NCBI GenBank assembly: GCA_020348925.1
Contig: CP070758.1
Coordinates: forward strand, 3,012,623-3,056,803
From: Gemmatimonadota bacterium
Lineage (GTDB): Bacteria; JBHIER01; G020348925
Reading direction: 5' to 3'
DNA length: 44,181 bases
The notes under the pieces are model-generated. The model saw nothing but the letters and a program-made list of their open reading frames with translations, did no database searches and was not told the origin of the DNA. Below are positions 33,536 through 39,776 of this stretch, piece after piece (the stretch's first letter is position 1; each line of letters opens with the position of its first letter). Made by a program: the position numbers and the translations under genes.

Positions 33536-34255
33536 ATGAAAAAGATTCTTTTTATTTCTTATGTTTTAATCGTTTCAATACCAACTTTGCCCCTTTTATC
33601 TCAAGAAGCAGTTCTAACTCTAACTCATGGCTCAGGAGTCCCGGGAAGCAATAGCAATATCATCCATGTAGAATTGGAGCATGATCAATATGTAGTATCA
33701 AGTTTTGAGATCTATATTCTCTTCGAGCCGAATATTTTGTCTGTTTGCGATCATGAGTTATCAGAATGTCCACACTGTGGTCCCTGTTGTGTATGTGCTA
33801 TAGAAAGAACTACCGAATGGAGCATTTTTCAATATTTCTCTAAGGAGGATGCAGGAACTTTAGGTGTAGTTGGCTATACTGAAGGTCATGTATTAGAGCC
33901 TGGAATTAACGCAATTGCAGAAGTCAAGATTGATGTGGCAGAAACCGTTCCAGTCAATGAATACAAACTCTATTTCGGAAGAACTCAGGTTAAAAATCCT
34001 GCTGCTGAGGAAATTCCCTCCACTACAATCGATGGCGTCTTTTCTGTAGTTCATAAAGGAGATGTGAACCACGACGGCAGTGTCGATGTCCTGGACGTCG
34101 TTTTAACAGGACTCATCTTCCTGGAACAATACCAGCCAACTTTTGGAGAACTATCCATCGCTGATTGTATAGACGACAACGAAATAACTCTTGAAGATGC
34201 CTTTTGCATCGTTGACGTGATCCTTACTTCATATTCAAAGAAACAGAAAAAATAA
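33536..34255 (+). CDS. Small secreted cohesin-dockerin protein
   Basis: This 239-residue protein has a signal peptide (MKKILFISYVLIVSIPTLPL). Residues 22-172 form a cohesin-like module (HGSGVPGSNSNIIHVELEHD, FEIYILFEPNILSV, TEWSIFQYFSKEDAGTLGVV, EPGINAIAEVKIDV). Inside it is an unusual Cys cluster (ECPHCGPCCVCA). Residues 174-235 are a dockerin. The first loop is canonical (GDVNHDGSVDVLDVV), while the second is degenerate (ADCIDDNEITLEDAF). The end is Lys-rich (SKKQKK) with no sorting tail. With only these two modules it could be an adaptor linking one cohesin and one dockerin partner, which is inference. The ribosome-binding site is weak. Confidence 0.85.
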   Translation: MKKILFISYVLIVSIPTLPLLSQEAVLTLTHGSGVPGSNSNIIHVELEHDQYVVSSFEIYILFEPNILSVCDHELSECPHCGPCCVCAIERTTEWSIFQYFSKEDAGTLGVVGYTEGHVLEPGINAIAEVKIDVAETVPVNEYKLYFGRTQVKNPAAEEIPSTTIDGVFSVVHKGDVNHDGSVDVLDVVLTGLIFLEQYQPTFGELSIADCIDDNEITLEDAFCIVDVILTSYSKKQKK

Positions 34256-34372: not shown

Positions 34373-34400
34373 AAAGTATAATTCTTAAAATTTCCGTCAA
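34373..34400 (-). promoter_or_regulatory. Promoter candidate next to the AraC-type boxes (broken-regulator copy)
   Basis: TTGACG (34400-34395) begins ten bases after the proximal box at 34411-34430. A TACTTT follows at 34378-34373 with a 16-base spacer. It reads toward the 3' end of the convergent cohesin-dockerin gene, so its first product would be antisense to that gene. The next same-strand gene is the BNR-like protein. Confidence 0.4.
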
Positions 34401-34410
34401 GTAAAAACAT

Positions 34411-34451
34411 TCGTACAATTCTGACATTCTTTCGTATAATTCTGACATTTT
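34411..34451 (-). promoter_or_regulatory. Pair of 20-bp direct repeats, AraC-type binding site candidate
   Basis: Box 1 (34411-34430, plus strand TCGTACAATTCTGACATTCT) and box 2 (34432-34451, TCGTATAATTCTGACATTTT) match at 18 of 20 positions with a 21-bp period, or two helical turns. That is the classic geometry of tandem AraC-family sites. Box 2 overlaps the stop codon of the AraC-domain ORF. A similar pair lies at 38755-38795. Confidence 0.6.
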
Positions 34452-35015
34452 ACTTGAAATTGGTATTTTTATGATCGTTTCTATATCCAGAAGGTGATTT
34501 CCCGGTCGAATTCTTAAACAGCTTATAGAAGTAATTTTGGTCGTTAAATCCTACTTTTACTGCCACTTCCTTGATCTCCAAATTCGAGCATTTCAAAAGG
34601 GATTTGGCTTTGTCAATCCTTAATCTATTCAACCAGATTTCAACTGTACAGTTTTTACTATCCTTGAAGGAACGGGCTAAATGACTGTAACTGACACCAA
34701 TACCTTGAGCCACATCTATAGCAGAGATCGGCCGACAATATAGTTCCTCCATGAAGTCAACGGCTTTATCTCCTAAAGACTTTCCTAATTTGATTGGGGT
34801 CAAGACATTTTCGATTATTTTCATTAGCTCCTTAACTCTGAAAGGCTTGATAATGTAATTCTCCATTCCTAAGCCTCAACAGCCACCTCTTCTGAACCTT
34901 TTCCAGTGACTATGATCACCGAGACATTGAAATCAAGTTTTTTCGTTCTTTCAGGCATCAAACAGAGTGCGGATTTCTGTCCCAACACAATAACTATTTT
35001 AAGGATTTCGCACTT
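34450..35015 (-). pseudogene. Degraded response regulator with intact AraC-type DNA-binding domain
   Basis: ATG 34866 opens a 138-residue frame that starts in the middle of a receiver domain (IIKPFRVKELMKIIENVL, where KPF is the conserved receiver Lys region). It ends in a full AraC HTH pair (AIDVAQGIGVSYSHLARSFK and EIKEVAVKVGFNDQNYFYKL). Just upstream, in another frame, the preceding receiver segment is still readable (FNVSVIIVTGKGSEEVAVEA) before a TAG. Adding one base there (GCT TTA GGA ATG) restores ALGMENYIIKPF, collinear with the intact paralogue at 38789-39511. The phosphoacceptor half is missing or unrecognisable. The AraC part might still be translated alone, since AGGA precedes the ATG. 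The AraC part is clearly similar to the paralogue. Confidence 0.75.
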
Positions 35016-35041: not shown

Positions 35042-35723
35042 TTATTGTAGTACGAAGGTTGAAGGCATTAGGATAGTTTTATGAAAGACAAATTTTGCAG
35101 GAACATGCGGAGGAGTGGGAGTGTTAACGCCGTCACTATCTGGATTATTGGACAAGAGATCCCCACTCCATGGAACTTGCTGCGTAAGACCAGCTGTACC
35201 TTGGTTAATCATGAGCCAAAATATCCCAGTAGTATGTGTCACCGGATGTAAGTGCGTTTGCTGTCATCAAAATCTCAGTTGTAATGCTATCATTGGTGCT
35301 CTTTCTAAAAAATATAGGGTCTTTGTCATTTGTCGTGAAGAATGCTTTTTTACCCTTATAGACATGGTGGGGGATAAAAAAAGCGTCCGCATCTTGCCCC
35401 TCGTCACGATAGATGACAAAGACCTAAATATATTATTCTCTAAGGTTTCAAGCATGGGGTTTTAATTCCACACTATTACCTCAAACTTGTCGGCTTCAGG
35501 AACAGGCTCCCAACGTAATATAGGAGTGTCATTGAAAAATAATACCATCCATTGGAAATATAAGCTGTGGAATAGAGAGCGAATTAATGATTTTAGATGC
35601 ATCAACATGAAACCGCATAGAGATAGGTTCGGACAATACAACTTTGGAATAGCCAACCACTCCCTGTTTCCCATGCAGGCTTGAATAGTTGACCAATTGG
35701 TCAATTCGAAAGTGAATACCCAA
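35042..35723 (-). pseudogene. Remnants of an Fn3-like domain gene with several frameshifts
   Basis: Protein-like pieces occur in successive frames on the minus strand. They are SKVVLSEPISMRFHVDAS and IPQLIFPMDGIIF, then NDTPILRWEPVPEADKFEVI, then (35210-35425) VFVIYRDEGQDADAFFIPHH and ALTSGDTYYWDILAHD, then LTQQVPWSGDLLSNNPDSDG. The RWEPVPEADKFEV start and the SGDTYYWDILAHD end are typical of a single fibronectin type III domain, so the frame is broken inside one domain. No piece has its own start signal. It follows immediately after the stop of the type IX-tail gene at 35725. Confidence 0.55.
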
Positions 35724-37515: not shown

Positions 37516-38228
37516 CTATTTATCCACTACCCACAGTGCACAATCTTGGGAAAATCCTTGAGGGTACCAAGCACCGCCGCAATAGAATTCTTGGCAGAGG
37601 GGCATAGCAGGATCATAAAATGCATGACCCGACCACTCTCTTGCACACCACGATTGAGAATATGAAAATACATCTTCCACTTTCGCCCACATAGCGCAGT
37701 AGTCAAACGCATAACCTTCTGCGAGAGGCTGCCACGAACCTCCTACTAAAGGCTTCCACTCCACATAAATGGTAACATAGATATTACAGATAGGAAGGGG
37801 CCAGGATATGGATGCTGCACCAATCCACAGGGAAGGATTCTGATAAGGTTGGGTAACATCTATAACCCAACCTTCAGCCGACCAACCGCAGCCGTAAGCG
37901 GTCTCATAAGAATCTCCCCAAGACGCACGTATGGAATCCCCTGTTTTTCTTTTTGTGGTGGGATCCCCAAGTTTTTTCCTTATAGCGTCAGATTCTTCAC
38001 GCTTGACTTTTATCGGAGCATTGGGGTCATCGACTTTTATTAAAGACCCAGATGGGCACGGTTCATCACCCATTCTTTCAGCTATCTCCTGAGGCAATTT
38101 TTGGAGATCGTCTTGGGGGGGCGTCTGGGTGAGTTGTTCTTTTTCGCTACAGCCTGTCATGAGGACGACCACCGCGAAACTCACCATAGTAGAATCAGAC
38201 TTCTATTAGCAGCATTGACTAAGTACAT
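37516..38228 (-). CDS. Lipoprotein of unknown function with a frameshift in the signal peptide
   Basis: The main frame (38187-37516, 223 residues) carries a lipobox (VVVLMTGC) and a Cys/Trp-rich body (YGCGWSAEGWVIDV, WPLPICNIYVTIYVEWKP, QSWCAREWSG), but it lacks a basic N-region and a ribosome-binding site. Forty-one bases upstream, AAAGGAGG precedes ATG 38228 in another frame, which reads MYLVNAANRSLILLW then stops. Adding one base near 38185-38192 would fuse them into a normal lipoprotein signal (basic Arg, hydrophobic stretch, LMTGC). So the start is probably 38228, and the gene is frameshifted or the assembly has an error. The mature protein has several Cys likely to form disulfides. I do not recognise the family. 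It is the first same-strand gene after the AraC-type boxes at 38755-38795. Confidence 0.7.
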
Positions 38229-38700
38229 GACCATCCTCCTTTCTTTCTTTGGATTAGTGAGCCTGTTCACAGTCATGTGTAAATGACAATAACTAAAGCA
38301 TTGCTTTCACCCCCTTACCAATTGTATGATTGGTTCTTTCTTTCGTAAGACTTACTACGGCATTCAAAAAGTACCCACTCTCATTATCTGTTTTAAGTAT
38401 TTCTTTTGCTCACCTGCGAAATGACACCTACTTCCTCTCTCTTCAGAATCCCCTTTTCCGAAATGCTTCTCTGATCACTGCCACTCCATGTATCGACTAA
38501 GAATCTGGTTATTTTGCTGTCTTACCGAAGAGGTTTAGTACCTGCAAAGAATTTATATCCACTCAAACCTAATCAAATTTGAATAAACGGATTACCCCCT
38601 GGGAAATTTCAATTGACGATTTTAACTAAACTTGCTCAATTTATCCCCTTTTCCACAGTCTTGGAGAAAAAAACAATTCCTGTACCTAATTATTTTCCAA

Positions 38701-38734
38701 TCTACCTTTCTTAGAAATCTACCTTTCTTAGAAA
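38701..38734. repeat. 17-bp perfect tandem duplication over the -10 region
   Basis: TCTACCTTTCTTAGAAA occurs twice without a gap (38701-38717, 38718-38734). On the minus strand each copy makes a TAGATT-like hexamer, so the duplication creates two possible -10 elements downstream of the AraC-type boxes. Confidence 0.75.
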
Positions 38735-38744
38735 TCCCTGGCAA
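38716..38744 (-). promoter_or_regulatory. Promoter candidate next to AraC-type boxes (intact-regulator copy)
   Basis: TTGCCA (38744-38739) and TAGATT (38721-38716) are 17 bases apart. The -35 starts ten bases after the proximal box, the same distance as in the 34.4 kb copy. The sequence between box and -35 is also alike (AT, A or G, TTTTT, A or G, CTTG). It would drive the lipoprotein gene. Confidence 0.5.
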
Positions 38745-38754
38745 GCAAAAATAT

Positions 38755-38795
38755 TAGCACAATCCTATCATTTTATAGCACAATCCTATCATTTT
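38755..38795 (-). promoter_or_regulatory. Pair of identical 20-bp direct repeats, AraC-type binding site candidate
   Basis: TAGCACAATCCTATCATTTT occurs at 38755-38774 and again at 38776-38795, 20/20 identical, with a 21-bp period. It shares 14 of 20 positions with the 34.4 kb boxes. The distal copy overlaps the 3' end of the response regulator gene. Confidence 0.65.
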
Positions 38796-39511
38796 GTCGA
38801 AAAATCATTTTTAACAAACTGTTTTCTATATTCCAGCGGTGACGTCCCAGTATGCTTCTTGAAAACGCGACCGAAATAATTCTGGTCGTTAAATCCCACC
38901 TTTGTTGCTATTTCCCTGATTTCCAAATTCGAATTTCCCAGAAGGACTTGCGCTTTATCTATCCTCAGTTCATTTAACCAAACATCGATGGAACAACATT
39001 TCTCCGTCTTGAATAAACGAGCCAGATGAGGGTAACTTAAACCAACTCCTTGAGCGACATCGCTGGCAGAAACCGGCTGACAATAATGCTCTTCCATAAA
39101 CTCTATTGCCTGATCCACATGGGATTTTCTCACTTCTGGCGAACCACAGACTCTTTTTATAGTTTCCCTAAGCTCATTGACTTTAAAAGGCTTCTGAATG
39201 TAATCTCGTACTCCCATCTTGAACGCGCTGCGACATACCTCCTCCGTCCCCTTCCCCGTGACTACGATCACAGGAACTTCACAATTCAGTTCTCTCATTC
39301 TTTCCAGAACCTTCAGGCCATCTATTCCGGGTGGCAATAAAAAGTCCAGAAGAACAAGATCAATCTTTTCTCTCCTCTGTAGAATTTCTAACGCCTTTTC
39401 ACCCGTCTCAGCCTCAATAAGATTGTATTCATCCTCGAGGGCTATACGAAAAGCTTCCCTGCATGCACATTCATCGTCTACGATCAAAAAAGTACGTTTA
39501 TCTTCAATCAT
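38789..39511 (-). CDS. Response regulator with receiver and AraC-type DNA-binding domain
   Basis: The product is 240 residues from ATG 39511. The receiver domain has the acidic pair Asp12-Asp13 (LIVDDECA), phosphoacceptor Asp56 (LVLLDFLLPPGIDG), Thr85 (VVTGKG) and Lys107 (QKPF). The C-terminal AraC domain has two HTH motifs (ASDVAQGVGLSYPHLARLFK and EIREIATKVGFNDQNYFGRV). So it is a two-component transcription factor. Its sensor kinase is not in the window. A good promoter lies at 39749-39776. It is paralogous to the broken copy at 34450. Tandem repeats at its 3' end are its likely target, which would make the lipoprotein gene and perhaps the type IX-tail gene its regulon. Confidence 0.92.
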   Translation of the reverse strand: MIEDKRTFLIVDDECACREAFRIALEDEYNLIEAETGEKALEILQRREKIDLVLLDFLLPPGIDGLKVLERMRELNCEVPVIVVTGKGTEEVCRSAFKMGVRDYIQKPFKVNELRETIKRVCGSPEVRKSHVDQAIEFMEEHYCQPVSASDVAQGVGLSYPHLARLFKTEKCCSIDVWLNELRIDKAQVLLGNSNLEIREIATKVGFNDQNYFGRVFKKHTGTSPLEYRKQFVKNDFSTK

Positions 39512-39748
39512 CAATCATCAACCTTCACCCCCTCATCAGGATTTTCGGACGTGCCCGGTATCAGATGATGAATATGAAATGTTCCAGCAGATTTCCGACA
39601 TTGTATACTACTCCGCTTTTCCTCTTTTCGCCTCATAATGAAATCCTCAAAGAATCTCACAAGGAGCCTTTGAACGCAGACAGCCTCTTCCGACCTTTCG
39701 CCTGATGCCGTGTTCCCTGAATGCATTGAGTTCCAATCTGCTTTTCGA

Positions 39749-39776
39749 AATATAAAGTATATTTTCTTTCTGTCAA
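39749..39776 (-). promoter_or_regulatory. Promoter of the response regulator gene
   Basis: On the minus strand a perfect TTGACA (39776-39771) and TATATT (39754-39749) have a 16-base spacer. The transcript would have a leader of about 230 nt before ATG 39511. Confidence 0.6.

Follow-up and report, generated by a model that had tools for sequence, protein, structure and literature searches.

Two near-identical boxes, repeated directly with a 21-bp period, lie at the 3' end of an intact gene for an AraC-type response regulator in the 44,181-nt window (the whole stretch of DNA that was analysed; coordinates below are positions within it). These boxes are likely to be a local operator of the AraC type that is bound by the adjacent regulator (38789–39514, minus strand) and activates the minus-strand genes downstream. 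The candidate operator is probably functional and of a known kind, with an unusually tight placement at the 3' end of the regulator gene. Binding by the regulator, the dependence of that binding on phosphorylation, the direction of the promoter and the target genes are what we infer from the DNA and from published precedent. If this assignment is true, an orphan AraC-type response regulator is matched to its operator and to a single target nearby, and a natural pair of diverged regulator–operator units becomes available for the co-evolution of AraC recognition helix and half-site; no new mechanism is revealed by the arrangement.

Tandem boxes and the adjacent regulator genes

At the locus of the intact regulator (site 2), the promoter-distal box 1, AATGATAGGATTGTGCTAT (38775–38793, minus strand), contains the stop codon of the regulator gene, and the promoter-proximal box 2, AATGATAGGATTGTGCTAA (38754–38772, minus strand), follows at a distance of 21 bp. 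A second pair (site 1) consists of AATGTCAGAATTATACGAA (box 1, 34431–34449) and AATGTCAGAATTGTACGAA (box 2, 34410–34428), likewise on the minus strand and 21 bp apart. Each locus has two near-identical boxes of 19–20 nt in direct repeat, and at both the spacing is that of the half-sites of an AraC/XylS-type tandem operator. The presence of two sites with direct repeats of 21-bp period, first proposed in a sequence-only reading of the window, was borne out by Tandem Repeats Finder and by a window scan. With the former, 38755–38795 (period 21, 100% match, score 82) ranked highest in the window and 34410–34449 (period 21, 94%, score 73) third, the second rank being taken by a 17-bp repeat at 38699–38736. 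The window scan, set to periods of 20–22 and a match of at least 16/20 between direct repeats, returned only sites 1 and 2. For comparison, repeats of at least 19/20 at any period from 15 to 30, a stricter threshold than that of the window scan, were absent from 200 Markov-simulated sequences of 7 kb.

The gene at site 2 encodes an orphan response regulator of 241 aa with an N-terminal receiver and a C-terminal double helix-turn-helix domain of the AraC type (Pfam Response_reg, 4.7e-25; HTH_18, 7.2e-20), the architecture of an AraC-family response regulator. The best PDB relative of its DNA-binding part is the DNA-binding domain of E. coli AraC (2K9S, E 5.7e-16). Its own promoter is predicted at 39749–39776 on the minus strand (TTGACA-16-TATATT, 11/12), and no box was found near this element. 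The paralogue at site 1 (34450–34866, minus strand) is decayed: the AraC domain is in frame (138 aa; Pfam HTH_18 only), and the receiver part is cut short, having suffered deletions, and an in-frame stop lies upstream, which places the gene outside the AraC-family response regulators. The two AraC parts differ at 44, 35 and 70 of the first, second and third codon positions, respectively, in 139 codons, which indicates past purifying selection on this part. The boxes overlap the 3' ends of both genes, by 7 nt at site 2 and by the stop codon only at site 1; the earlier description of two paralogous AraC-type response regulators holds for site 2, whereas at site 1 only the AraC domain is left.

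Duplication and divergence of the two loci

A genome-wide BLAST search returned one significant second match, with 69% identity over 379 bp (E 7.7e-31), and the match between the loci stops just past the −35 element. When the two loci were aligned as DNA, the alignment began inside the regulator coding sequence, took in the stop, the two boxes, the linker and the −35, and ran into the spacer, fading about 95 nt beyond the stop. Judged by this alignment, sites 1 and 2 are parts of one duplicated block, so that their similarity is not independent evidence; as to conservation of the operator, its second copy is the duplicated locus in the same genome. Between loci, the 19-nt cores are identical at 12/19 positions in the first box and 14/19 in the second, close to the 14/20 reported previously, a similarity that follows from the duplication. 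The linker is identical at 8/10 positions.

Over a non-coding block of 63 nt, identity is 68%, compared with 49% at neighbouring third codon positions (Fisher p 0.009). The evidence for selective constraint on this block is modest, because its identity is not significantly above that of fourfold sites (p 0.12; 25 sites only). Of the 19 core columns, five distinguish the loci in both boxes simultaneously, and only two others vary. Under independent drift of the boxes, at least five such columns would arise with a simulated P of about 3e-4. Shared differences of this kind are expected if one protein reads both boxes; the matching of boxes within a locus may reflect either the preference of one protein or homogenisation by slippage. 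The period is the same and the repeat boundaries are nearly the same at both loci, with a variable junction of 1–2 nt.

By our own alignment, the AraC domains of the two loci differ at positions that we take to correspond to W42 (P/S), T95 (G/Y) and R96 (R/K) of MarA in its complex with DNA. These differences might be compatible with an altered box preference. It is a tentative suggestion that regulator and operator were duplicated as a unit and then diverged into two insulated pairs, in which both half-sites of each operator would have changed together with recognition-helix residues of the adjacent AraC domain and each pair would serve roughly a single local promoter.

Promoter-like elements and downstream genes

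A TTG-containing −35-like hexamer ten bases after the boxes, as claimed earlier, was seen at both loci. On the minus strand, TTGCCA at site 2 (38739–38744) aligns with TTGACG at site 1 (34395–34400), and the gap is 10 nt from the box edge used in the earlier claim, or 9 nt from the 19-nt core. A −10-like hexamer, TAGATT (38716–38721, minus strand), follows at site 2 with a spacer of 17. The element that aligns with it at site 1, TACTTT (34373–34378, minus strand; spacer 16), is weak, matching at only 3/6 positions, and was not returned by the promoter scan. Promoter-like matches of site 2 quality are frequent in any case, with 24 found and 18 expected by chance in 7 kb. The −10 region of site 2 is spanned by a perfect 17-bp tandem duplication of 2.2 copies (38699–38736), by which TAGATT is doubled. 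A search with Rfam detected no RNA element in the window.

The likely first target on the minus strand is 38187–37516, which encodes a predicted lipoprotein-like product of 223 aa with no Pfam match and a role suggested by its position; the leader between it and the site 2 promoter would be about 480–520 nt long. In the region 38181–38276, a well-placed ribosome-binding site and an ATG (about 38231) begin a short reading frame, which runs to 38181 and is offset by one frame from the 223-aa ORF; the start of the 223-aa gene looks frameshifted or affected by a sequence error. The second downstream gene, 37350–35725 (minus strand), encodes a secreted protein of 541 aa with a C-terminal sorting-type domain (FlgD_ig, 8.8e-07; CHU_C, 2.7e-4, which is below the CHU_C cut-off). 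Elsewhere, the non-coding stretch 35318–35424 contains an inverted repeat of 24 nt (88%) whose arms are 59 nt apart, and 35311–35434 recurs with 78% identity at G000:C1:1978310-1978436; it may be a MITE-like or REP-like element. A transcript from the site 1 promoter would first meet an opposing gene (33536–34255, plus strand). The secreted-protein ORF 33223–31526 carries an apparent frameshift of its own, its signal-peptide start (about 33387) apparently lying in another frame.

Searches beyond the two loci

When the tandem pattern was searched genome-wide with up to three mismatches, sites 1 and 2 alone were recovered; the absence of a third tandem site from the genome scan proposed earlier fits a local regulator–promoter unit. 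Single boxes with up to two mismatches gave 28 matches genome-wide, compared with 13 in a reversed control. No convincing partner box was present 20–22 bp from any of the new matches, for which reason a wider regulon was dropped.

The genome has three other receiver-AraC paralogues, none of which showed convincing tandem boxes at its 3' end. The best repeats there, 12/18 at period 20 (L006) and 14/18 at period 19 (L001), are at or near a background that is itself inflated by several sampled loci containing sites 1 and 2, and L008 gave none; the idea of 3' boxes at every receiver-AraC gene of the genome was rejected. Among 29 stand-alone receiver-AraC genes of other genomes, no 3' repeat rose above background. 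Two apparent 21-bp repeats past AraC genes were also set aside: the one in Treponema (L063) lies inside the coding sequence of the next gene, and the one in Prevotella (L108) belongs to a hairpin-like stretch, rich in G+C, from which the next long ORF is about 750 nt away. The latter stretch (L108:5560-5720) has G+C-rich hairpins behind the AraC-type gene and the 21-bp-period repeat CCACGGCTTGGGACAAAT / CCAGGGCCTGGGACAAAT. A portable regulator–promoter module, as had been envisaged in the sequence-only reading, is not established, because the other receiver-AraC genes compared, within this genome and beyond it, do not show the arrangement, which was seen in two copies only, 4 kb apart.

Proposed working of the unit and alternative explanations

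In the working that we propose, the two boxes would be the two half-sites of an AraC-type operator, occupied by two molecules of the 38789–39514 regulator that would sit next to each other on the same face of the helix, 21 bp or two helical turns apart. Bound directly upstream of the minus-strand promoter, the regulator would activate transcription of 38187–37516 and possibly of 37350–35725. Site 1 (34410–34449) would be the equivalent operator of the duplicated, now decayed regulator copy. From the published 21-bp operators of the AraC family, it is most likely that the regulator binds both boxes as a dimer and activates the minus-strand promoter, and, with no tandem site in the genome beyond the duplicated one, it would be a local regulator. 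Several points weigh against this reading: the weak −10 of site 1 and the opposing gene beyond it, the frequency of chance promoter matches, the leader of some 500 nt and the possibly broken start of the presumed target, and the lack of convincing boxes at the other receiver-AraC genes compared.

The same half-sites could instead serve feedback, either by blocking or driving plus-strand transcription antisense to the regulator's own gene or by forming a roadblock at its 3' end, in which case they would be autoregulatory and would not activate downstream genes. The overlap of the boxes with the stop codon suits such a role, as does a plus-strand promoter-like element, CTGACA-16-TATTTT, inside box 2 of site 1. 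Moreover, the boxes of site 2 start on the plus strand with TAGCAC, which resembles both the TAGC of the A-box in AraC sites and the GCAC of marboxes. Feedback is nevertheless judged unlikely, since the plus-strand promoter-like match occurs at site 1 only but the minus-strand −35 at both loci, and since no convincing plus-strand gene is found for more than 1 kb downstream of site 2.

It is also rather unlikely that the boxes arose by replication slippage, in a spot that is AT-rich and prone to it, and were passed on through the duplication without any regulatory function. That slippage happens at this spot is indicated by the perfect 17-bp repeat, which lies 20 nt from the boxes of site 2 and is missing from the homologous site 1. 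The two loci are one duplicated block, and slippage alone could also have homogenised the boxes within a locus. Slippage would leave less readily explained why period and boundaries have been kept so similar at both loci although third codon positions have diverged by about 50%, and the adjacency to an AraC-type gene together with the 21-bp period fits published operators. Recognition by a different protein, such as a recombinase or a regulator of the OmpR/PhoB type with its tandem 11-bp repeats, appears very improbable. PhoB boxes do form tandem repeats of about 22 bp, but no sub-repeat of 10–11 bp is visible within a box here, the genome has no further tandem copy, and no recombinase was recognised when the ORF list was looked through by eye.

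Comparison with known systems

As a candidate AraC-type operator, the arrangement resembles those of E. coli AraC at araI1-I2 and XylS at Pm, where two direct-repeat half-sites also lie 21 bp apart, next to a −35 where the present loci have −35-like hexamers. By our reading, the XylS repeats are separated by a gap of 6 bp, so that 15 + 6 gives the same period of 21. In those two systems the half-sites directly adjoin the −35 or run into it, whereas the present boxes end 9–10 nt upstream of the −35-like hexamers; AraC and XylS also differ from the present regulator in having a ligand-binding domain where it has a receiver domain. XylS binds 15-bp direct repeats (PMC5481539).

The spacing expected of AraC-family tandem repeats in the sequence-only reading agrees with published 21-bp geometry: 16 predicted motifs of HTCS, which are AraC-type response regulators, average 21 bp between tandem sites (PMC3878776), and AraC-family rhamnose regulators of Bacillales, Bacteroides and Enterococcus show a 21-bp periodicity (PMC3870299). 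The present loci share with Bacteroides HTCS an AraC-type response-regulator output, direct repeats of about 21 bp near the regulator gene, and related regulators with related motifs (PMC3878776). HTCS are single-chain sensor-kinase-regulators reported only from Bacteroidetes (PMC3878776), whereas the present regulator is a stand-alone protein of 241 aa: of the four parts that an HTCS chain unites (sensor, kinase, receiver, AraC domain), it has the last two only.

A close parallel in layout is the XydS/XydR system of Clostridium cellulolyticum: the AraC-type response regulator XydR has its binding site behind its own gene and ahead of the cluster that it controls, whose start codon lies about 415 bp from the predicted promoter (PMC3572039). 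In both cases a receiver-AraC gene lies directly upstream of the presumed target, the site, here a candidate one, falls in a long non-coding region after the regulator gene, and the predicted promoter is far from the start codon. XydR itself is a 532-aa protein whose gene neighbours that of a kinase and which also has a remote second target, and clean 21-bp tandem boxes at the stop codon are not reported for it (PMC3572039); the present locus, unlike that of XydS/XydR, has neither a recognised adjacent kinase nor a remote tandem site. With XydR, both a binding site downstream of the regulator's own gene and a long leader before the target have precedent.
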